Below, one piece after another: positions 1 to 13,960 of a stretch of DNA of 47,385 nucleotides. Made by a program: the position numbers and the translations under genes. The DNA is from a candidate division TA06 bacterium B3_TA06 (GTDB taxonomy: Bacteria; Hydrothermota; Tepidihabitantia; B3-TA06): positions 65,836 through 113,220 of the forward strand of contig NJBO01000002.1 in the NCBI GenBank assembly GCA_005223075.1. Direction: 5' to 3'. Position 1 is the stretch's first letter. Each line of letters opens with the position of its first letter. The notes under the pieces are model-generated. The model did no database searches and was not told the origin of the DNA. It worked only from the letters and a program-made list of their open reading frames with translations.

Positions 1-1214
1 CTTTCAACACATACGACATCTCCTGCCGACAGACCGACGAGTTCGTGTGGGATCATCCCGATTTTCTTATCCTCTATTCTGCCGGCAACGTAGGCGCCTT
101 AGGGGTAAGCCCCCCATCTACAGCGAAGAACGTTCTCTCAATCGGCGCAACCTTTAACGGCGCCTCTGCCAATACACCCTTTCTTATATCAAGCATGGGG
201 CCTACCGACGACGGCCGCATCAAGCCTAACCTCACCGCCCCTGGAATTCTTATATCAGCTGACGGGGCCTCACAGGAAAACTATAAAGACGGAGCGGGTA
301 CAAGTATGTCCTCACCCGCGGTAGCCGGTACATGTGGCTTAATCGTCCAATATCTAAGGGAAGGCTGGTATCCTTCGGGTGCCCCATCTTCCGCCGACGG
401 CATCGAACCATCCTCCGCCCTGCTCAGGGCGATGCTTGTGAGCTCAACCATTGCTGACTTCCCCGGCAATCCCATCCCTGATCCTACAGTGGGCTGGGGA
501 CGGGTCTGCCTGGACTCGGTTCTCTACTTTGCAGGGGAAGAAAACCGGCTCTATCTGGATGATGGAACCCTGGGGATAGAGACCGGCGATGAGGCTATCT
601 ACAACGTGGACGTTGAAGGCAAAGACTGGCCCTTGAGGGTGACGTTGGTTTGGACCGATCCGCCCGCTGATCTGGCGGCGGCGAAGAAGATCGTTAATGA
701 TCTTGATCTTGAAGCAATGTCCCCTTCCGGCGGTATATACAGGGGCAACGTCTTTGCAAATAACTTCTCACAGACAGGTGGTTCTGCGGATGCGACAAAC
801 CTCGAGGAGTGCCTTCGCATCAAAAACCCCGAAGAAGGAACCTGGACCGTGCGCGTGATAGGGACGAACGTCCCCGAAGGGGCTCAACCCTTTGCCCTGG
901 TCATCACCGGCGATATGGCCAAAACAGGAATAGATGAGGGAGAAGATATCCAAACGTCTCTTGACCTTAATGTAGCCCCCTTCACAGATCAGCTGATTAT
1001 TCGACTCTATACACCCCAGGCGGGAGCACTCACTTTAGAGATGTTCGACCAGACAGGACGCAAAGTCAGGACTTTGATAGATGAACGCGTGCATCCTGAG
1101 GGAGAGGCAACTTACTCATTTAGCCTGCGGGGTTCCTTGCCCAGCGGCGTCTACTTCCTGCGGTTGAAAACCGCTGGAAAACAAGTTACCACCAAGGCCC
1201 TGCACCTTAAATAA
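1..1214 (+). CDS. Secreted S8 (subtilisin-like) serine protease, 5'-truncated, with C-terminal sorting domain
   Basis: The frame is open from the left edge of the window, so the N-terminus is missing; a GTG at 45 is internal. The first visible residues align with the paralog at 1341-4880 just before its oxyanion-hole Asn region (YSAGN here, YSGGN there), so the catalytic Asp and His lie outside the window. The catalytic Ser is visible in the GTSMSSPAVAG motif. A beta-sandwich region with WTDPPA and NDLDLE follows, a P-domain-like module common behind S8 domains of secreted proteases. The last ~85 residues form a FlgD-Ig/Por-type sorting domain (FDQTGRKVRTL ... LPSGVYFLRL), suggesting export to the outer membrane or surface. 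The role is inferred to be extracellular protein degradation. Identification as an S8 peptidase is secure; the exact specificity cannot be read. Confidence 0.92.
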   Translation, partial: FNTYDISCRQTDEFVWDHPDFLILYSAGNVGALGVSPPSTAKNVLSIGATFNGASANTPFLISSMGPTDDGRIKPNLTAPGILISADGASQENYKDGAGTSMSSPAVAGTCGLIVQYLREGWYPSGAPSSADGIEPSSALLRAMLVSSTIADFPGNPIPDPTVGWGRVCLDSVLYFAGEENRLYLDDGTLGIETGDEAIYNVDVEGKDWPLRVTLVWTDPPADLAAAKKIVNDLDLEAMSPSGGIYRGNVFANNFSQTGGSADATNLEECLRIKNPEEGTWTVRVIGTNVPEGAQPFALVITGDMAKTGIDEGEDIQTSLDLNVAPFTDQLIIRLYTPQAGALTLEMFDQTGRKVRTLIDERVHPEGEATYSFSLRGSLPSGVYFLRLKTAGKQVTTKALHLK

Positions 1215-1340: not shown

Positions 1341-4300
1341 ATGAGAAAAGCCTTTGCTTTACTCTTCTTACCGTTTCTGCTCCTGGCCGCGACAGGACCT
1401 TTGATAGACGGTCAGGTGCTACCGACGGCAACCCATCTTTACAGGGATCCTACGGTGATCCATCTCCCCTGCGGGATCGATCTTGATACCCGCGATGCGG
1501 AACCGACACTTCCTGCAAACCTCATGCTTTCAGCCGAGCAGGAAGGAATCGGCACCTACCTTGTTCAGTTTGACGGCCCTATCTACTCGCACGAACGCCG
1601 TGCCCTTGAACAGGCAGGGGTAATCATCGAGGGCTACCTGCCTAACTACACCTATATTGTTCGGATGGATCAGGCTACACGCGCCAAGGTAGAGATCCTA
1701 CCAGGAGTGGGCTGGGTAGGTAACTACGAACCCGGTTACAAACTGTGCCCTGAGATTGACCTTGAAGGCGGCATCCCAGAGAAATTGGTGGTAACTCTTT
1801 ATGCAGGCATCGATGGCGAAGTCATCCGCGATGCTGTTGAGGCCATCGGAGGAGAGATGCTTGAGTGGCAAGCCACCGACTTCCAGACATTCGTCCACAT
1901 AATGCTTGCCCCCCAGAGGCTCCCCGTGCTTGTCCGCGAGCCGCAGATCAAGTGGATAGAACCTTTCTGTCAACTCTATCTCTACAACGGACAAGCCCAG
2001 TGGGTTATCCAAACCTGGGAAGAAGACAACCGCCGCATCTGGGATGAAGGAATAACCGGAGAAGGCCAGATCCTCGCCACCCTTGATACTGGGATTAAAA
2101 CGACCCACAACTTCTTCCGCGACCCCTCTGTTGCTATCACCGACTTCGGGAATTACCCCACCCACCGCAAGATCATCGGATACCAGAAAACCGTGTTTGT
2201 CCCCGAGATAACATTTGGCGACGAGATCGGACACGGCACCCACACCGCCGGATCGGTCCTGGGCAACGATCAGCCGGTAGGAGGCTCAAGCGTTAATATC
2301 GGCATGGCTCCGGACGCCAGGATCTTCTTCCTCGATGGAGGCGGTGGAGGTGTAGGAATCATCACCTCGATAAGCCTTGAGTACAGCCTCAGTATTGCCT
2401 ACAACGGCAACAGCGCAGGCGGTGCACGAATCATCTCAAACTCATGGGGGAGCCCAACCCGTGCCTACAACCAAAGATGCGTGGAGTCCGACCAGACCAT
2501 GTGGAACCGCCCCGACTACCTGGTCATGTACTCCGGCGGTAACACCGATCAAAGTCAGTATACAGGCTCCCCGGCAAACGCCAAGAACGTCATAGCCGTA
2601 GGAGGATGCCTGAACGGCACCGCAGCTAACTTCCACTGGAGTGGAAGTGCGCAAGGACCTACTAACGACGGCCGCATCAGTCCTGACATAGTGGCACCAG
2701 GTAAAGATGTAACCTCCTCACATAACAGCGGCGATGCCGCCGAAGTTACATGGTCGGGAACCAGCATGGCCGCTCCAACAGCGGCAGGCAACGCTGGCCT
2801 TATCCGCCAGTACTTCACCGACGGCTGGTATCCCTCAGGTAGTCCCAGCTCTCAATCTGGATTTAACCCCTCGGCCGCTCTTCTCAAGGCAATGATGATC
2901 AACTCGGTAGAAACCGACTTCCCTTCAATCGAGGACAGGGTCCCTTCCAATAGGGTCGGCTGGGGAAGACCGAAACTGGACAACGTGCTTTACTTCCCCG
3001 GTGATTCTCGCAAACTTGCCATCGTGGACTTCGATGAAGGACTGGCGACAGGTTACCAGTTCCTTGGCAAAGTGGATGTATCCGGCAGCAGCGAACCTAT
3101 TCGAATCACCCTGAACTGGACAGACTATCCGGGCCAGCTGTATGCCTTTCCAGCCCTGGTGAACGATCTTAATTTGGAAGTTATATCTCCGTCGGGCAAG
3201 GTCTATCGCGGCAATAACTTCAGTAATAACGTTTCTGTGGAAGGCGGCGATTTTGACACCAAAAACCCGGTCGAGAACGTCTTCGTTGATTCCTCTGAAA
3301 CCGGGGAGTGGGAGATTCGCGTCCATGCAAACAACGTACCTGCAGGTCCTCAGCCGTTTGCCCTTGTCGTAACCGGCGAACTTGGCAACCTCATCACGTC
3401 AGCCTCAATCGAAGATGTGATGGTGGACGACGACGGCCAGTCCAACCCTGACGGCAACATGGATCCGGGCGAAAACGTAACCCTCTATGTCAAGCTTATA
3501 AACGCAGGCAGCGAAAGCCTTCACAACGTGACGGCAACGCTTTCGAGCGCATCCTCCGACGTCACCATCACCGACAACAGCACAAGCTACGGAACCATCA
3601 ACGCCGGTTCTTCCGCTGAGGGCGATGGTTTCGGCGTGAGCGTTTCCTCATCCGCTGTCGTCGAGACATGGGTCGAGTTCGAGCTCAGCCTCTCCTCCAC
3701 AGAACTCTCAGGCGATCTGGGAGGCTTCGAACTGATGATTGGTACGCCGACTTACGATTGGGTCAGCCATGATGTTGGTAATGTCAAACTCACCGTGACA
3801 AAACAGGGCGCGATCGGATACCTGGGTGATGAACCTAACGATATAGGCGACGGCTTTCGCTTCCCGAAAGACGCCTTCACCAGCTGGCTCTATCATGCAA
3901 GCTTTACAGCCGGTAACTCCGCCGACTATCTGAACGACCGGATGTTTAACGGAGCGGACTGGGAAGTAAACACTAATCCAGACGGTATGGTAATCATCGG
4001 CCGTCGCGAGTACTCCGACCAGGACAGCCGCGCGATCTACACCGATGCCGGCCACCCCAGTGCCAAGGGACTTAGAATCTGGCAGTACGGATACGCATGG
4101 AAAGGAACGGACTTCGTAATACTCAAGTTCGTCCTTGAAAACACAGGAGGCTACGATTTGAACGACATGTACGCGGGAATCGTGGCGGACTATGATATGG
4201 GATCAAACTCTGCAGACGACCTGGCCGGGACAGATCAGAGCCGTAATCTGGCTTACATGAAGGAATCCACCACTGACAATCCGCATGTCGGCATACAGCT

Positions 4301-4880
4301 GATGTATGGGAATAAATCCAACGTAAGCGTGATCTCCAATCCTGATTATGTCTGGGACACCTGGGACGACGATATCTGCTTCAGGTTCCTCAACGGTGAC
4401 CTGCACTTCGAGTCCTCCTCAAATGATACCGACTGGTCGATTGTTGTTTCCGTCGGTCCTATCAACCTTGCACCCGGTGCAACCGATACAGTGGGATTTG
4501 CAATGATTGCCGGTGAAAGCCTTGCCGACCTACAGTGGAATACCTCAGACGCAATAGATAGATGGGAATCCCTGGCTATTGAAGAAGAACACCCCACTAC
4601 ACCTGTTACTCTGGATATGCACCTTTCTCCCAGTCTCTTTACCGGAGAAGGATCCATCCGATTCAGCCTGCCTGCCACTAGCAATGCCCGTCTTGACGTA
4701 TTCGATCTTGCCGGTCGTAAGGTGATCACGCTGGTGGACGGCAATCTCACCGCTGGCCAGCACGAGATATACTGGAACGGGAGCGACCAGAAGGGTGCCA
4801 CGCTATCCAACGGCGTCTACTTCATCTCGCTTACCACCGACGATGCAAAGATTGTCCAAAAAGCAGTCATCGTGAAGTAG
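1341..4880 (+). CDS. Secreted S8 (subtilisin-like) serine protease with C-terminal sorting domain
   Basis: This 1179-residue protein has an N-terminal signal peptide (MRKAFALLFLPFLLLA) and starts at an ATG behind a good Shine-Dalgarno sequence (AGGAGG). A propeptide-like region of about 230 residues precedes the protease domain, which has a full triad: Asp249 in LATLDTGI, His298 in GHGTH and Ser475 in SGTSMAAP, with the oxyanion Asn in YSGGN. A P-domain-like beta-sandwich follows (NWTDYPG, NDLNLE), then a CARDB-like stretch (NPDGNMDPGENVTLYVK), another unassigned beta-rich region, and a terminal FlgD-Ig/Por-type sorting domain (FDLAGRKVITL ... NGVYFISL). It is a tandem paralog of the gene ending at 1214, and both are probably exported by the same route. 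A strong terminator directly follows. Activity as an extracellular endopeptidase is known for the family; the substrate is not inferable. Confidence 0.95.
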   Translation: MRKAFALLFLPFLLLAATGPLIDGQVLPTATHLYRDPTVIHLPCGIDLDTRDAEPTLPANLMLSAEQEGIGTYLVQFDGPIYSHERRALEQAGVIIEGYLPNYTYIVRMDQATRAKVEILPGVGWVGNYEPGYKLCPEIDLEGGIPEKLVVTLYAGIDGEVIRDAVEAIGGEMLEWQATDFQTFVHIMLAPQRLPVLVREPQIKWIEPFCQLYLYNGQAQWVIQTWEEDNRRIWDEGITGEGQILATLDTGIKTTHNFFRDPSVAITDFGNYPTHRKIIGYQKTVFVPEITFGDEIGHGTHTAGSVLGNDQPVGGSSVNIGMAPDARIFFLDGGGGGVGIITSISLEYSLSIAYNGNSAGGARIISNSWGSPTRAYNQRCVESDQTMWNRPDYLVMYSGGNTDQSQYTGSPANAKNVIAVGGCLNGTAANFHWSGSAQGPTNDGRISPDIVAPGKDVTSSHNSGDAAEVTWSGTSMAAPTAAGNAGLIRQYFTDGWYPSGSPSSQSGFNPSAALLKAMMINSVETDFPSIEDRVPSNRVGWGRPKLDNVLYFPGDSRKLAIVDFDEGLATGYQFLGKVDVSGSSEPIRITLNWTDYPGQLYAFPALVNDLNLEVISPSGKVYRGNNFSNNVSVEGGDFDTKNPVENVFVDSSETGEWEIRVHANNVPAGPQPFALVVTGELGNLITSASIEDVMVDDDGQSNPDGNMDPGENVTLYVKLINAGSESLHNVTATLSSASSDVTITDNSTSYGTINAGSSAEGDGFGVSVSSSAVVETWVEFELSLSSTELSGDLGGFELMIGTPTYDWVSHDVGNVKLTVTKQGAIGYLGDEPNDIGDGFRFPKDAFTSWLYHASFTAGNSADYLNDRMFNGADWEVNTNPDGMVIIGRREYSDQDSRAIYTDAGHPSAKGLRIWQYGYAWKGTDFVILKFVLENTGGYDLNDMYAGIVADYDMGSNSADDLAGTDQSRNLAYMKESTTDNPHVGIQLMYGNKSNVSVISNPDYVWDTWDDDICFRFLNGDLHFESSSNDTDWSIVVSVGPINLAPGATDTVGFAMIAGESLADLQWNTSDAIDRWESLAIEEEHPTTPVTLDMHLSPSLFTGEGSIRFSLPATSNARLDVFDLAGRKVITLVDGNLTAGQHEIYWNGSDQKGATLSNGVYFISLTTDDAKIVQKAVIVK

Positions 4881-8242: not shown

Positions 8243-8270
8243 TTGACAACGCGCCCCTGAACCGTATCAT
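8243..8270 (+). promoter_or_regulatory. Promoter of the mazG-like/membrane-protein operon (leaderless arrangement)
   Basis: TTGACA (8243-8248), a 16-nt spacer and TATCAT (8265-8270). The ATG at 8279 begins 8 nt after the -10 box. No Shine-Dalgarno site is present. Confidence 0.7.
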
Positions 8271-8278
8271 AAGCGCCG

Positions 8279-8587
8279 ATGGAAGATAAGCTTGGAGTCC
8301 GTGAGTTTCAAGATTTGATAAAGGAAGAGTTCTTCCACAAGGACTCTCGCCGGGGGCTGCCGCGAACCTTTATCTGGTTCACTGAGGAGGTAGGTGAGCT
8401 GGCAAGGGCAATCAGGTACGCAGACAGAAAGGCTGTAAAGGAGGAGTTTGCCGACGTCCTCGCCTGGCTGTGCACCCTGGCAAATCTTGCCGGGATAGAC
8501 CTTGAGGAAGAAGCTAGAGAAAGATACGGAAAAGGCTGCCCGCGGTGCGGGTCAAAGCCATGCAAATGTAAAGAAGCCTTCAAATAG
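8279..8587 (+). CDS. MazG-like nucleotide pyrophosphohydrolase with C-terminal Cys cluster
   Basis: The 102-residue protein is a compact all-alpha NTP-pyrophosphohydrolase domain with the typical acidic pattern: WFTEEVGELARAI, then EEFADVLAWLCTLANLAGIDLEE. Family members hydrolyse NTPs or dNTPs to the monophosphate and PPi. The tail adds a CPRCGSKPCKC cluster that could bind zinc. The promoter ends 8 nt before the start. The gene lies 9 nt upstream of the DUF6754 gene and probably shares its mRNA. The exact nucleotide substrate is not inferable. Confidence 0.88.
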   Translation: MEDKLGVREFQDLIKEEFFHKDSRRGLPRTFIWFTEEVGELARAIRYADRKAVKEEFADVLAWLCTLANLAGIDLEEEARERYGKGCPRCGSKPCKCKEAFK

Positions 8588-8596
8588 GAGGGGCAT

Positions 8597-9904
8597 TTGA
8601 TCTTACTTATGCTCATTCCCCTTCTCCTTTCGCAGACGGAGGATATAGAGGAGCCTGCCCAAGACACCCTGATACCCTCTATCCAACCTCCCACAGGAGT
8701 CGTGGCAATTGACGTTCCCAACGACGAAGGTCATCAGATCGTAGTGCGCTGGGAGCTCTCTCCGGATGATGCCAAGCTCGCCTCCTACGTTGTCTACCGT
8801 GCTGAGGAAGGAGGAGAGTTCAGTCAGGTGGCGGTTCTGGCACCTGGTACTGACAGCATGGTCAACAACAACGATATACTGGACAGAGTAGTTGACTTCT
8901 ACTCCGCCGAACTGAGATCGCTCAAACGAGACCTACGTAAGGCGCAAAGGAAAGCGGATACGGATGCAGTCCGAGAGCTTGAGGCATCCATTAAAGGGAT
9001 AGAGTCTGAACTCGAAGCCACCCGAAAACAACTGCTGCGGAACATGGTTCCCTATATCTACAAGGTTGCCGCATCATATAAGGGTTACGAGTTCATCTCC
9101 GAGGTTTCAGAACCGGCACAGGCCAGAGGACAATGGTTCCACCTGGGCCGTATAAACGTTCTGGTTGCTATGATCTTCTTCTTCTTCCTGGTCACGTTCT
9201 TCATCTCACAGGCCAAGAGAGGCAAAAATCTCTTCCTGCGCAAGATCGCCGGTCTGGAGGCCATTGACGAGGCGGTCGGCCGTGCTACAGAGATGGGACG
9301 ACCTATACTGTTCGTCCCCGGACTCTCATACATAGGTGACATCGCCACCATCGCTGCGCTTAACATCCTTCAAGGAATAGCCAAGAAAGCGGCCCAGTAT
9401 GATACCCCGATCATCGTGCCAAACCGCGACCCTATCGTCTACACCGTTGCGCGTGAGATTGTCAAGGAGGCTTACTCCGACGCCGGACGCCCTGACGCCT
9501 TCAACCCGGACAGTGTATTCTTCATAACCCAGAGCCAGTTCGCTTACGTGGCCGCAGTCAACGGTATCATGCTCCGCGAGAAACCTGCCGCCAACTTCTT
9601 CCTCGGCATGTTCTGGGCTGAGTCGCTGCTTCTTGCAGAAACAGGTAACATCTCTGGCGCTATTCAGATCGCGGGCACCGACGCCTCTGCACAGCTGCCA
9701 TTCTTCATCACCGCATGCGACTACACCATCATCGGAGAGGAGCTCTACGCGGCCTCGGCATACCTTTCCAGGGAACCCAACCTTGTGGGGACAATCAAGG
9801 CTCAGGACTGGGGCAAAGCCACCATCGCTGGATTGCTTATAGTGCTCACTGTGCTTGCTATGTTTGGGATCGAGTTCGCTGTGAAACTCCTCACCACGGT
9901 CTAA
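8597..9904 (+). CDS. DUF6754-family membrane protein with N-terminal Fn3-like domain
   Basis: The 435-residue protein begins with a signal-like hydrophobic stretch (MILLMLIPLLLSQ), then an Fn3-like extracytoplasmic region (IVVRWELSPDDAKLASYVVYRAEEGGEF) and a charged probable coiled coil (about residues 100-145, ELRSLKRDLRKAQRKAD). A transmembrane helix follows (INVLVAMIFFFFLVTFFIS). The large conserved part holds GRPILFVPGLSYIGDIATIAALNIL, PIIVPNRDPIVYTVAREIV, ITQSQFAYVAAVNGIM, FFLGMFWAESLLLAETG and GAIQIAGTDASAQLPFFITACDY, which I recognise as DUF6754. A C-terminal membrane helix ends it. Function is unknown. It is the first of four consecutive membrane-protein genes and is preceded closely by the MazG-like gene. 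Confidence 0.8.
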   Translation: MILLMLIPLLLSQTEDIEEPAQDTLIPSIQPPTGVVAIDVPNDEGHQIVVRWELSPDDAKLASYVVYRAEEGGEFSQVAVLAPGTDSMVNNNDILDRVVDFYSAELRSLKRDLRKAQRKADTDAVRELEASIKGIESELEATRKQLLRNMVPYIYKVAASYKGYEFISEVSEPAQARGQWFHLGRINVLVAMIFFFFLVTFFISQAKRGKNLFLRKIAGLEAIDEAVGRATEMGRPILFVPGLSYIGDIATIAALNILQGIAKKAAQYDTPIIVPNRDPIVYTVAREIVKEAYSDAGRPDAFNPDSVFFITQSQFAYVAAVNGIMLREKPAANFFLGMFWAESLLLAETGNISGAIQIAGTDASAQLPFFITACDYTIIGEELYAASAYLSREPNLVGTIKAQDWGKATIAGLLIVLTVLAMFGIEFAVKLLTTV

Positions 9905-9913
9905 GGAGGCAGC

Positions 9914-10576
9914 ATGAAACGCAGAATACCACTTACTATAACCCTGGTGCTTGGTATCGTGATGATGATCCAGTTCTTCATCCCTCACCAGTTCTCCCAG
10001 GATTTCAAGAACACCGCATTGGAGTGGCTGAGGGTCATCGGCGGCTTCGCATTCATCATTGGACTCGCAAGCTTCGTCAGCCATCACGCGACCAAGATCA
10101 AGCATAAGAAGGAAGGCTGGGTTTACAGCCCCATAGCACTTGGTGCCCTCGTGGTTATGGCTGTGGTTGGATTAATCGGACGTTCTCCAAACATGAACTG
10201 GCTTCCCATCACCGTCCAGGGGCAGCAGGTCTCGATCTTCACCTATCTTTTTTCCAACTTCTTCACCCACATGATGATCCCTCTCGGCGCCACCATGTTC
10301 TCTGTGCTTGCGTTCTACATCGCCTCTGCAGCCTACCGTTCGTTCCGTGCAAAGTCGCTCGTTTCCATCCTTCTTCTGGTCGCCGCCTTCGTGATAATGC
10401 TCGCGATTATCTTCTATAACGTGCTTCCCCTTGGCGACTTAGGAGAGTGGTTGCTATCAGTACCTAACATGGCAGCTAAACGCGGGATCCTACTCGGTGC
10501 AAGCCTGGGTGCAATCGCTACATCATTAAAGATCATCCTCGGGATTGAACGCGGCTACCTTGGAGGTACGAGATGA
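9914..10576 (+). CDS. Unnamed polytopic membrane protein of the DUF6754 module
   Basis: The 220-residue protein has about six hydrophobic segments, including TITLVLGIVMMIQFF, IGGFAFIIGLASFV, IALGALVVMAVVGLIG, LGATMFSVLAFYIASAAY and ILLLVAAFVIMLAIIFYNV, and ends with a conserved-looking GILLGASLGAIATSL...GIERGYLGG. A basic loop (HHATKIKHKKEG) lies between helices 2 and 3. An AAGGAGG site precedes the ATG, 9 nt after the DUF6754 gene. Its stop overlaps the next gene's start by 4 bp, so the two are translationally coupled. I do not recognise a named family; a subunit of a membrane complex with its neighbours is inferred from position only. Confidence 0.75.
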   Translation: MKRRIPLTITLVLGIVMMIQFFIPHQFSQDFKNTALEWLRVIGGFAFIIGLASFVSHHATKIKHKKEGWVYSPIALGALVVMAVVGLIGRSPNMNWLPITVQGQQVSIFTYLFSNFFTHMMIPLGATMFSVLAFYIASAAYRSFRAKSLVSILLLVAAFVIMLAIIFYNVLPLGDLGEWLLSVPNMAAKRGILLGASLGAIATSLKIILGIERGYLGGTR

Positions 10577-11817
10577 AGTTCTGGGAACGTCTAGGCAAGA
10601 TCGACCGCCGCATTATTTACATAGTTCTGGCCGTTGTAGTAATCATTCCCCTTATCCTTACGGTTAAGCTTCCGGGGAAGGTCCGTGCAATGCCTCGCAC
10701 CAAGGATGTCTTTGATCACATCGAGAACATAGACCCAAACGGTAAACGCAGGGCTATCCTGATATCGGTTGATTTCGACCCTCAGACCGAACCCGAGCTT
10801 AAGCCCCAGCTTGAAGCGGTTGTCCGACACGGATTCGCTCGGAATATCCCGCTGCTGGTTATGGCCCTTCCCATCCAGGGAACCGATATTGGCATCGAGG
10901 TTTTCACAAGACTCGCCGAGGAGCATAACAAGGAATACGGTATAGACTACGTTATCCTGGGCTGGAAACCCAGTCCGGTGGCGGTAATCCTTGGTATGGG
11001 TAACTTTATCGAACAGGTATTCCCTACCGACTACTTCGGCACCCAGCTGGCTGAACTGCCTGTGATGGAAGGCATACGGAACTACGACGATGTAGGATTG
11101 GTTATTGATTTCACCGGATCAAGCTTATACGTTTACTGGGTCTACTACGCTCATACCCCTTACGATGTCCCGGTGGCTACAGGCGTAACCTCGGTCTCGG
11201 TAGCAGATATCTATCCCTTCCTTGGTTCCAGACAGTTCATCGGGATGCTTGCCGGGATGAAAGCAGGTGCCGAATACGAACGCCTGGCGAAGGATCGTTA
11301 CTACCCCAACGTGGTGGTCAAATACCTTGGAAAGGACTCCTACAATGTAACCATAGAAAAGCAGAGCTACGACGCTGATTCAAACGACATAGCCAGTCTT
11401 GCTAGTCGGTTCGATCTCAATCTGGATGAGTTGTATAACACTTTGGATTCTCAGGGCAAGTTCGAAAAAACCCTTGTCTTGCTGGAGTTCCCTGATACCA
11501 CCACCTACTCCCGTGACTTGATCGTGAGGCTGAAGGGAAAGCGAGCCTACACAATAACCTCAGAGGGTCAAAAGCTTACCGTGGATAAGGATAAGATGCT
11601 GGCGATTGCCAATCTTTACGACGTATCCGAGTTAGAAGTAAACAAGTTACTCAAGAGAGAAGACAATCCACAAGACCCTAAGATGACCGATGTAAAACGC
11701 AGCATCTTCCTGCGAGGCACACAGGCTCTACCCGCTCTCTCGGCCTCACTTCTCGTAATCATCCTGTTTGTGATCCTCGGCAACATAAGCTACTTTGCAA
11801 CCAGGAGAAAGTCATGA
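10573..11817 (+). CDS. Unnamed membrane-anchored protein of the DUF6754 module
   Basis: The 414-residue protein has an N-terminal membrane helix (IIYIVLAVVVIIPLILTV) and a C-terminal one (LPALSASLLVIILFVILGNI), so about 340 residues are probably extracytoplasmic. That part has alternating beta/alpha patterning (KRRAILISVDFDPQ, IPLLVMALPIQG, YGIDYVILGWKPSP), then FPTDYFGT, LPVMEGIRNYDDV and GMLAGMKAGAEYERL, reminiscent of a Rossmann-like or periplasmic-binding-like fold. The second half (about 255-385) looks like a separate small domain. No catalytic motif is apparent. It overlaps both flanking genes by 4 bp. Function unknown. Confidence 0.75.
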   Translation: MKFWERLGKIDRRIIYIVLAVVVIIPLILTVKLPGKVRAMPRTKDVFDHIENIDPNGKRRAILISVDFDPQTEPELKPQLEAVVRHGFARNIPLLVMALPIQGTDIGIEVFTRLAEEHNKEYGIDYVILGWKPSPVAVILGMGNFIEQVFPTDYFGTQLAELPVMEGIRNYDDVGLVIDFTGSSLYVYWVYYAHTPYDVPVATGVTSVSVADIYPFLGSRQFIGMLAGMKAGAEYERLAKDRYYPNVVVKYLGKDSYNVTIEKQSYDADSNDIASLASRFDLNLDELYNTLDSQGKFEKTLVLLEFPDTTTYSRDLIVRLKGKRAYTITSEGQKLTVDKDKMLAIANLYDVSELEVNKLLKREDNPQDPKMTDVKRSIFLRGTQALPALSASLLVIILFVILGNISYFATRRKS

Positions 11818-12524
11818 AGAAATGGGTACCTACAGTAATTTTCCTGGCAGTCGCGGTGGTACTGATCGTTCTGGCTATCGTATTTCTTCCCGTCTCAAAA
11901 AGCGTCTGGGTCTGGATAGCAGCGCTTCTCACACTTGCCATCTTCAGCATACTCTACCGTGACAACCCGATCTACAGGATAGCAGAACACATATTTGTAG
12001 GACTCTCACTCGGCTACAGTTTAGCCATAATCTGGTGGCTGGCCCTGTGGCAGATCGCGCTGCGCCCCCTGTTCGTGGAAGGACGATTCATCCTCATAAT
12101 CCCCATCGCCATAGGACTGTTGTACTTCACACGACTCATACCCAAGGTCTCCTGGCTGGTGCGAATCCCCATCTCAATCGCTCTGGGTCTAGGATCGGGT
12201 ATTGCAATCCCACTCATCTTCCAGGCCACCATCTTCGAGCAGACCAAGGCCTCGCTGGTGCTTCCTGAGATGTTCGCCCCAGGAAATCCCTGGCCAGGCA
12301 TCTGGGCGATTATACTGATTATAGGAATAGTCACCACCCTCGCATACTTCTTCTTCTCACGAAAAGAAAAGAGTGTCCTCTCCCCTGTCTCCAAGGTCGG
12401 TATCATCTTCATCATGCTTGGGTTCGGAGCCACGTTTGGTCTTACGGTCATGTCGCGTGTCTCCCTACTTATCGGACGCCTTCAGTTCCTTCTAAGGGAG
12501 TGGCTGGGTATAATCACACAATAA
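11814..12524 (+). CDS. Unnamed polytopic membrane protein closing the DUF6754 module
   Basis: The 236-residue protein has about seven hydrophobic segments, among them TVIFLAVAVVLIVLAIVFLP, WIAALLTLAIFSILY, FVGLSLGYSLAIIWWLALW, ILIIPIAIGLLYFTRL, ISIALGLGSGIAIPLIF, IWAIILIIGIVTTLAYFFF and IFIMLGFGATFGLTVMSRV. The start overlaps the previous stop by 4 bp. No cofactor or catalytic motif is evident. With the genes from 8597 it makes a four-gene membrane set, presumably one complex. No terminator is visible before the next gene, so read-through into the phosphohexomutase gene is possible. Confidence 0.75.
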   Translation: MKKWVPTVIFLAVAVVLIVLAIVFLPVSKSVWVWIAALLTLAIFSILYRDNPIYRIAEHIFVGLSLGYSLAIIWWLALWQIALRPLFVEGRFILIIPIAIGLLYFTRLIPKVSWLVRIPISIALGLGSGIAIPLIFQATIFEQTKASLVLPEMFAPGNPWPGIWAIILIIGIVTTLAYFFFSRKEKSVLSPVSKVGIIFIMLGFGATFGLTVMSRVSLLIGRLQFLLREWLGIITQ

Positions 12525-12583: not shown

Positions 12584-13960
12584 ATGGGGGATGTAAATCC
12601 TTTAATCTTCCGTGCCTATGACATCCGCGGTGTTGCTGATCGGGATTTCACCCCACAGGTGGTAGGAGCACTCGGACGCGCACTCGCATCACGGGCGAAA
12701 GAACGCGGGGTTATGCGGATCGCTGTGGGACGTGACATCCGGTTGAGCTCGCCGAGGCTGTTTGACAATCTCTCAGAAGGAATCAATAGAGCAGGCGTTA
12801 ACGTAGTGGATCTGGGCGTTATACCCACCCCTTTGCTCTACTTCGCCCTGCACCATTTTGATTTGGATACCGGGGCGATGATCACCGGCAGCCACAACCC
12901 CGCCGATCAGAACGGGTTCAAGATCTGCGAGGCAAAACAAAGCCTGTACGGTGAAGCAATACAGGAGCTAAAAAAACGCATCGAGGATGAACGCTTCGCC
13001 GAAGGACAAGGAAGTATAGAAAAACTTGACCCGATCCCGGCCTACCTTGAGTTCATGCATAAGGCCTTCGAGTTCAAGGAGCCGAGGCGGATAATTATTG
13101 ACCCAGGCAACGGCACCACCGGCGTGCTGCTTGAGCGGCTTTTTGCAGGGTTTCCCGAACTTGATGTATCCTACATAAATCTTGAACCGGATGGGCGCTT
13201 TCCTGTTCATCTTGCCGATCCCACTGTTCCAGAGTATATGGAAGAGCTTGGCAGGCTAGTGCGGGAGCACGGAGCCGATCTGGGTCTGGGCTTCGACGGT
13301 GACGGCGACCGGATCGGTGCGATGGACGAGAAAGGCCGGCTGATCTTCGGTGACAGGCTTCTGGCTATCCTGGCCTCGGAGGTGCTTGAGCGTCAACCCG
13401 GTGCTAAGATAATCTTCGACGTGAAGTGCTCCCAGGGCATAGTGGAGTATATCAGGGAGCGAGGCGGCAACCCTATTATGTATAAGACAGGCCACTCACT
13501 TATCAAGGCAAAGCTTCGTGATGAGAAGGCTCCGTTGGCGGGCGAGATGTCCGGACATCTTTTCTTCGCAGATCGCTTCTTCGGTTACGACGACGCCCTG
13601 TATGGGGCACTCAGGGTTCTTCAGCTCCTTGAGCTTCGCAAAAGACCACTTTCAGAACTTGTTGCCGAAGTCCCCTCCTACATCAACACCCCGGAGATCC
13701 ACGTTCCCTGTCCTGACGAGCGCAAGTTCGAGGTCATCAAGGCGCTACAGGACGAGTTCTCACGTGAGTACGAAACCATAACCATAGACGGAGCCCGTGT
13801 CCTCTTTGAAGAGGGCTGGGGACTTGTTCGAGCCTCAAACACCCAGCCGGTGCTTGTCCTGCGCTTTGAGGCAAAAACCACCGATGAGCTCAAGCGTATA
13901 CGTGAAATTTTTTCCCGCAAGCTTAGAGAACAAAACGTAGAACCCGGGGAGGTTCTTTGA
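12584..13960 (+). CDS. Phosphomannomutase/phosphoglucomutase
   Basis: The 458-residue length fits the alpha-D-phosphohexomutase family. The N-terminus reads NPLIFRAYDIRGVADRDF. The phosphoserine loop is TGSHNP (Ser103), the Mg-binding loop FDGDGDR (Asp238 onward), the sugar-specificity loop GEMSGHLFF and the phosphate-binding loop RASNTQPVL. All four active-site loops are intact, so it should interconvert hexose 1- and 6-phosphates for glycan or lipopolysaccharide precursors. The GEMSGH form is typical of dual PMM/PGM enzymes. It starts at an ATG after AAGGAGATGTAG. Its stop overlaps the TTG start of efp (TTGA). Confidence 0.93.
   Translation: MGDVNPLIFRAYDIRGVADRDFTPQVVGALGRALASRAKERGVMRIAVGRDIRLSSPRLFDNLSEGINRAGVNVVDLGVIPTPLLYFALHHFDLDTGAMITGSHNPADQNGFKICEAKQSLYGEAIQELKKRIEDERFAEGQGSIEKLDPIPAYLEFMHKAFEFKEPRRIIIDPGNGTTGVLLERLFAGFPELDVSYINLEPDGRFPVHLADPTVPEYMEELGRLVREHGADLGLGFDGDGDRIGAMDEKGRLIFGDRLLAILASEVLERQPGAKIIFDVKCSQGIVEYIRERGGNPIMYKTGHSLIKAKLRDEKAPLAGEMSGHLFFADRFFGYDDALYGALRVLQLLELRKRPLSELVAEVPSYINTPEIHVPCPDERKFEVIKALQDEFSREYETITIDGARVLFEEGWGLVRASNTQPVLVLRFEAKTTDELKRIREIFSRKLREQNVEPGEVL

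Follow-up and report, generated by a model that had tools for sequence, protein, structure and literature searches.

In a 47,385-nucleotide stretch of the genome of candidate division TA06 bacterium B3_TA06 (contig NJBO01000002.1; here called the window), we identified four consecutive membrane protein genes that, as comparisons between genomes show, form one evolutionary unit with a fixed gene order and module-specific co-divergence. The first gene encodes a DUF6754 protein, and the other three encode a six-helix protein (TM6), a protein with an alpha/beta domain between two transmembrane (TM) helices (ROSS), and a protein with seven helices in the window copy (TM7). The same comparisons show that two soluble proteins, MutL (a GlmL/MutL-type ASKHA protein) and B375 (a protein of ~375 residues), co-occur with the module and disappear together with it, their genes often lying directly upstream of it.

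In the window, the module is preceded by the gene for a MazG-like protein, and an initial annotation had proposed a five-gene operon at 8243 to 12524 in which the membrane protein genes overlap or nearly touch. We confirmed five open reading frames (ORFs) at 8279 to 12524, all on the + strand, as are the other window features whose coordinates are given below: the MazG-like gene (8279 to 8587), the DUF6754 gene (8597 to 9904), the TM6 gene (9914 to 10576), the ROSS gene (10573 to 11817), and the TM7 gene (11814 to 12524), separated in that order by 9, 9, −4, and −4 nucleotides (nt). The start of the proposed operon at 8243 is explained by a sigma-70-like promoter match directly 5′ of mazG (TTGACA-16-TATCAT, 8243 to 8270, 11/12 consensus positions); this site is only suggestive, with the count of such sites in the region being no higher than in shuffled sequences. 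A second module with the identical gene order lies elsewhere in the same genome (contig C1, around 237000 to 241000).

Conservation and co-divergence of the module

To describe the module more widely, we read 110 loci, comprising those of the window's phylum, with both modules of the window genome included, and 80 loci among the matches listed in a scan of named genomes; modules available for alignment number more than 500. Among those listed matches, the closest named DUF6754 protein came from a Candidatus Stahlbacteria (WOR-3) metagenome-assembled genome and was 74% identical. The labels of the named-genome loci include Stahlbacteria/WOR-3, Edwardsbacteria, Latescibacterota, Fermentibacteria, Zixibacteria, Eisenbacteria, Poribacteria, CSSED10-310, Hyd24-12, and Planctomycetota, the last with the anammox genera Scalindua and Loosdrechtia and one member of the Brocadiaceae. 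Of 120 genomes sampled across the window's phylum, 113 carried DUF6754, with 1 to 7 copies apiece, and none of 14 well-known control genomes did. TM6 was found in 116 of the 120, and the four genomes without it are all among the seven that lack DUF6754.

Complete modules in the order DUF6754-TM6-ROSS-TM7 numbered 107 and occupied 82 of the 110 loci, so that the gene neighborhood test of one conserved four-protein membrane unit without a known role was passed by a wide margin; had the four genes failed to co-occur in other genomes, that part of the initial annotation would have had to be abandoned. The next gene was TM6 after DUF6754 in 118 of 139 cases, ROSS after TM6 in 114 of 118, and TM7 after ROSS in 117 of 124. 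Median gaps across modules were 9, −4, and −4 nt, with stop and start codons mostly overlapping. Judged by these conservation statistics, the gene arrangement in the window is not a product of chance.

Head-to-tail repeats of the module were frequent, with TM7 followed by another DUF6754 gene in 32 cases. For loci carrying two or three modules, the pairwise distances of all six protein pairs were correlated (0.875 to 0.917), and in 500 within-locus permutations of genes among modules the correlation never exceeded 0.80. Since the observed values lie above all permutations, each protein evolves with its own module mates. The order of the paralogs also tends to persist: modules 1, 2, and 3 of a Zixibacteria or WOR-3 array are generally closest to modules 1, 2, and 3 of another array. 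Five loci, mostly labeled Zixibacteria (L091, L116, L135, L138, and L140), carry three modules in a fixed order whose distinct features are kept across species; in arrays of this type, the third module has a longer DUF6754 and TM6, and the first has a ROSS protein with about four hydrophobic segments.

Architecture of the four membrane proteins

The DUF6754 protein (435 residues) is translated from a TTG start codon with a good Shine-Dalgarno sequence. It is a full member of PF20539, a Pfam domain of unknown function that covers residues 177 to 430 (E = 5e-120; 399.9 bits versus a gathering score of 27). Its AlphaFold2 (AF2) model (mean predicted local distance difference test [pLDDT] score of 88.5) and topology analysis indicate, in order, a signal-like N terminus, an Fn3 domain, a TM helix near residues 183 to 207, a six-strand alpha/beta domain (residues 208 to 393; 9218 to 9775), and a TM helix near residues 394 to 422. 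Across 48 members, the mean net charge around the first TM helix was +3.5 after the helix versus 0.0 before it. Given the positive-inside rule, the conserved alpha/beta domain is probably cytosolic and the Fn3 domain exterior. Thus, although the initial annotation was right about an Fn3-like exterior part, the strongly conserved part of the protein is the alpha/beta domain predicted to lie in the cytosol. This domain carries near-invariant polar residues (R215, R229, T231, E232, Q314, R327, E342, E348, Q357, T361, C374, D375, E381, and E382), whereas the N-terminal part is missing in 4 of 125 DUF6754 proteins, so Fn3 is dispensable. A profile search of the PDB with DUF6754 recovered only Fn3 relatives, and Foldseek returned no confident relative of the alpha/beta domain, its matches being essentially Fn3 structures.

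The ROSS protein (414 residues) had been described as a ~340-residue Rossmann-like exterior part held by two helices. The two TM helices and the exterior alpha/beta part are borne out by the AF2 model and the topology analysis; the exterior part, however, consists of a ~200-residue alpha/beta core (core pLDDT of >95) and a ~130-residue insert of low confidence. The first TM helix is preceded by two arginines with conservation of 98% and 96%, and the flank that follows the second TM helix at the C terminus has a charge of +2.5. These charges suggest that the alpha/beta domain is periplasmic. Its invariant or near-invariant residues include D67, E75, D125, D153, Q221, and E236.

The in-frame insert (~129 residues, 247 to 375; 11311 to 11697), which accounts for the greater length of the window protein, ends just ahead of the last TM helix. 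In a comparison that took in L045:9549-10406, it is shared with one other genus of the family and cleanly absent from a 96%-identical congener. A LysM domain in the insert was considered and rejected, since there was no Pfam match to it and the lone weak match was to DUF1456 (E = 0.026). The second ROSS copy of the window genome (L003:7672-8913) has a different, repetitive insert of ~135 residues inside the alpha/beta domain, which is coiled-coil-like with EYxxA repeats.

A Pfam scan of 49 ROSS members found no consistent family, and a PDB sequence search found no match to ROSS. The fold search of the exterior part likewise gave no confident relative: the best Foldseek neighbors are of the LOG/PpnN nucleosidase fold (SLOG-type Rossmann), at E = 6.2e-3 at best and a TM-score of ~0.24 with no sequence similarity, which is a generic alpha/beta likeness and does not place ROSS in that family. 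In the AF2 models, strands and helices follow one another in the same 13-element order in the alpha/beta domains of ROSS and DUF6754. Profile-profile comparison, however, gave probabilities of 2.7 (whole) and 0.2 (trimmed), so we rejected homology between them; the resemblance of the models remains a visual one, of a common fold type.

TM6 (220 residues) has six helices, as originally described, and invariant charged residues at R190 and R213. TM7 (236 residues) does have the seven helices assigned to it in the window copy, but the first of these is missing in most relatives, and the family core has about six. Its invariant residues are N51, E58, Q143, R215, and R222. The TM6, ROSS, and TM7 window proteins matched no Pfam or NCBIfam family above threshold. 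Over the alignment members of TM6 and TM7, no consistent Pfam family emerged, with TMD0_ABC being touched by only 2 of 37 TM6 members, and profile searches of the PDB gave no match. No homology was found between TM6 and TM7, and an apparent extra TM6 paralog in the window genome (the third hit) proved to be the second piece of one TM6 gene.

Association of MutL and B375 with the module

MutL and then B375 are encoded directly upstream of DUF6754 in loci labeled WOR-3, Planctomycetota (including Scalindua), and Effluviviaceae, whereas in Latescibacterota-labeled loci B375 either stands by itself where the known sequence ends or occurs without MutL. A conserved protein of ~110 to 150 residues often precedes MutL. 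GcvPB (glycine dehydrogenase subunit 2) precedes the MutL region in four loci (L050, L054, L085, and L119); it was rejected as a core partner because trpE occupies this place in Planctomycetota. In the window genome, MutL is encoded at C2:62971-64419, slightly beyond the edge of the window and ~9.7 kb upstream of the module, and B375 is encoded on another contig (C20). The same genome has a 951-residue ORF (C3:156765-159587) in which a MutL part is fused to a B375-like part. Similar ORFs of 870 to 1030 residues occur in other genomes, and these seem to be a second, divergent MutL-B375 class.

The linked MutL matches PF13941 over its full length (E = 1e-126; 423 bits versus 27) and so belongs to the GlmL/MutL superfamily. 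The ASKHA fold is established to bind ATP, and the phosphate motifs of this fold (DCGSTTTK and VDIGGATTD) are invariant in seven aligned MutL members; since these motifs are intact, MutL likely binds ATP. While the linked MutL shares the full-length domain and the ATP motifs with the GlmL/MutL accessory protein of B12-dependent glutamate/ornithine mutases (PF13941, NF040745, TIGR01319), it scores below the NCBIfam cutoffs for that protein (227.4 versus 475 bits for GlmL NF040745 and 214 versus 600 bits for the ornithine protein), and its neighbors are B375 and membrane proteins rather than mutase subunits. B375 shows a weak likeness to sandwich-barrel domains (RnfC_N/biotinyl-type), with E values around 1e-3 that are below the cutoff.

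B375 was found in 114 of the 120 genomes of the window's phylum. Among 149 Planctomycetota genomes, DUF6754 was found in 41, B375 in 38, and MutL in 43. Thirty-six genomes shared DUF6754 and B375, and 36 shared DUF6754 and MutL (Fisher's exact P = 1e-26 and 4e-22, respectively, neither being corrected for phylogeny). Adjacency, which is independent of kinship, was also frequent: 25 of the 36 genomes that share B375 and DUF6754 have the two genes no more than 3 kb apart. Finally, two genomes of one genus in the window's phylum (g24), which are 94 to 95% complete, lack DUF6754, TM6, ROSS, TM7, MutL, and B375. All six genes are present in two further genera of this family. The simplest reading of this absence is the joint loss of one six-part system.

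MazG and other lineage-specific neighbors

The MazG-like protein of the window (102 residues) belongs to the MazG family (PF03819; 45 bits versus a cutoff of 22; E = 1.4e-11) and has an EExxE...ExxD motif and a C-terminal CPxC-PCxC cluster. The motif is retained in nearly all of 16 aligned relatives, and the Cys cluster is also kept. The protein did not reach the NCBIfam equivalog cutoffs for NTP pyrophosphohydrolase MazG (16.6 versus 208 bits) or HisI (19.8 versus 42.7 bits). It shares its family (E = 7e-21) and its EExxE...ExxD core with SSO3215-type MazG-like proteins (PDB 1vmg), from which it is set apart by its genomic link, in one lineage, to a membrane module. In 15 of about 110 loci, from several families, a gene of this MazG subtype precedes the module in the same orientation, in some cases overlapping DUF6754 or within 10 nt of it. 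Nearly all of these loci belong to the window's phylum (WOR-3/Stahlbacteria labels), and one (L072) is labeled Latescibacterota; the second module of the window genome has no MazG upstream. Based on this distribution, the link of MazG to the module is real but lineage restricted, and MazG is not part of the core. The soluble nucleotide-processing partner originally proposed therefore stands as an upstream gene in 15 loci but not as the general partner, being absent beside most modules. Given that the general soluble partners are MutL and B375, "nucleotide-processing partner" is better read as an ATP-binding ASKHA partner. In several WOR-3 genomes, a gene for a 23S rRNA intervening-sequence four-helix-bundle protein lies between mazG and DUF6754, and in Scalindua such a gene lies between B375 and DUF6754 (L056:16432-16818, L134:7479-7877, L057, L070, and L081).

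Other neighbors are also specific to lineages, including phosphoglucomutase (PGM), aroK/aroB, purF, transketolase and 2-hydroxyacid dehydrogenase, and TonB/ExbBD with DUF4388. These differences suggest that the paralogs serve different ends or are merely co-transcribed with their neighbors. In the window, a phosphoglucomutase/phosphomannomutase gene (PGM/PMM; 12584 to 13960) begins 59 nt after the module and is accompanied by an EF-P-like gene downstream of TM7; PGM/PMM follows the module only in the window's order, where it is also found in L045, L046, L047, and L063. Downstream of the TM7 gene of one paralog in three loci of the window's phylum (L034, L036, and L048) is a conserved run of DUF4388, two soluble proteins, and two small membrane proteins. 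The run ends in ExbB-ExbD-ExbD-TonB in L034, and its first three genes also occur in L050 and L124. At the left edge of the window lies a subtilase whose C-terminal tail weakly matches the Por-secretion type (L054:6744-9050, overlapping window positions 1 to 1214), and the gene after it (1341 to 4880) resembles another subtilase with such a tail. An anti-phage defense system is not indicated, as PADLOC gave 0 matches for seven proteins.

Candidate functions of the module

Rnf/Nqr redox pumps likewise combine several polytopic membrane proteins, and B375 weakly resembles the N-terminal barrel-sandwich domain of RnfC (E = 0.002 to 0.004, below the cutoff). However, there was no RnfA/D/E/G or NqrB-F Pfam match in the window proteins or in the ROSS, TM6, and TM7 alignment members, no Fe-S motifs were seen, and an ASKHA protein stands in place of NADH/ferredoxin subunits. 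Nor does the module group with ABC transporters, since no ABC ATPase was among the recurrent neighbors examined. To our knowledge, the PF20539 entry covers neither the four-gene module and its topology nor the link to MutL and B375. A literature search that most subscription journals lay outside of found no paper naming DUF6754, nothing of use on the context of GlmL, and no account of the module and its topology, of the other three families, or of the MutL/B375 link. No known kind tested fits the module, and its mechanism as set out below is a proposal.

The four membrane genes probably encode one obligate inner membrane complex with alpha/beta domains on both faces. The interpretation we favor, albeit tentatively and with somewhat less than even confidence, is that MutL and B375 work with this complex as an ATP-dependent transporter or an equivalent envelope machine. 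In such a machine, TM6 and TM7 would form the membrane core, with their invariant charged and polar residues in or near helices. MutL would bind and hydrolyze ATP as the power or gating unit, and B375 would be the adaptor, linking MutL to the cytosolic domain of DUF6754 so that the complex is driven or gated. The periplasmic ROSS domain would bind a ligand for which the TM6/TM7 pair forms the path. Tandem paralogs might each handle a different substrate or join into ordered hetero-complexes, while MazG would be an accessory enzyme co-transcribed with one paralog in one lineage.

Several observations weigh against ATP-dependent transport. Foldseek found no significant structural match for either alpha/beta domain, so ligand binding is proposed only from fold type and conserved polar residues; similarly, the Pfam and PDB profile searches revealed no homology of TM6 or TM7 to any transporter. 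The link of known GlmL proteins is to B12 mutases rather than to membranes. Most genomes of the window's phylum have their MutL and B375 genes at a distance from the module, and there is usually one copy of B375 for several modules. Co-occurrence is also imperfect: five Planctomycetota genomes have DUF6754 without B375, seven have MutL without DUF6754, and one Zixibacteria genome has the module without MutL. The lack of phylogenetic correction limits the Planctomycetota statistics, and the lineage-specific neighbors agree on no substrate.

The most serious alternative, which we nonetheless consider unlikely, is an enzyme complex bound to the membrane, in which an alpha/beta domain on one face catalyzes a step of envelope biogenesis (lipid, glycan, or lipoprotein chemistry) and to which MutL and B375 give activation energy or reactivation. 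The very high polar conservation of the cytosolic DUF6754 domain and of D67, E75, D125, D153, and E236 in ROSS resembles that of active sites, the Fn3 domain and the variable periplasmic inserts fit contact with the envelope, and sugar or cell surface genes adjoin some loci (e.g., PGM and Wzi-like). However, no enzyme family was matched by sequence, the matches by fold were weak and generic Rossmann ones (PpnN/LOG-like, E = 6e-3, TM-score of 0.24), and the neighboring metabolic genes vary between lineages.

A transmembrane sensor or regulator, in which the ligand of the periplasmic alpha/beta domain is signaled to the cytosolic DUF6754 domain controlling MutL/B375, appears rather improbable. 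While alpha/beta domains on the two faces, connected through TM helices, and many paralogs per genome with differing neighbors, would suit a sensor, two polytopic proteins with invariant charged residues exceed its needs. Moreover, no kinase, GGDEF, HAMP, or DNA-binding family was found among the recurrent neighbors examined, and near-universal retention is unusual for sensors.

Co-transcription could in principle hold together paralogs of a conserved operon whose membrane proteins act separately, without forming a physical complex. The fixed order over distant phyla, the start/stop overlaps, the co-divergence within arrays, and the joint loss of all parts make this very doubtful. Least probable of all is an envelope complex with MazG nucleotide pyrophosphohydrolase as its functional soluble partner, for although MazG keeps its catalytic and Cys motifs and its place upstream in the 15 loci, it is of an ordinary, widespread type, is missing from almost all loci outside the window's phylum, and is far surpassed by MutL/B375 in how widely it tracks the module.

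Returning to the ATP-dependent machine, we propose, with a confidence slightly below that in the mechanism itself, that the module represents a previously undescribed class in which MutL and B375 power a four-subunit complex encoded in ordered paralog arrays. WOR-3, Zixibacteria, Latescibacterota, Fermentibacteria, Poribacteria, and related phyla, together with anammox Planctomycetota, would have this class among their core machinery. No family entry exists for three of the four module proteins, and the remaining one is a DUF. Because anammox bacteria are already cultured in laboratory enrichments, the prediction can be tested directly. The co-occurrence and co-loss of MutL with the module would give the GlmL/MutL superfamily a role beyond B12 mutases. 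Near-universal in one phylum, with up to seven copies, and common to many uncultured phyla and anammox bacteria, the module likely serves something basic in the envelope or in energy metabolism.

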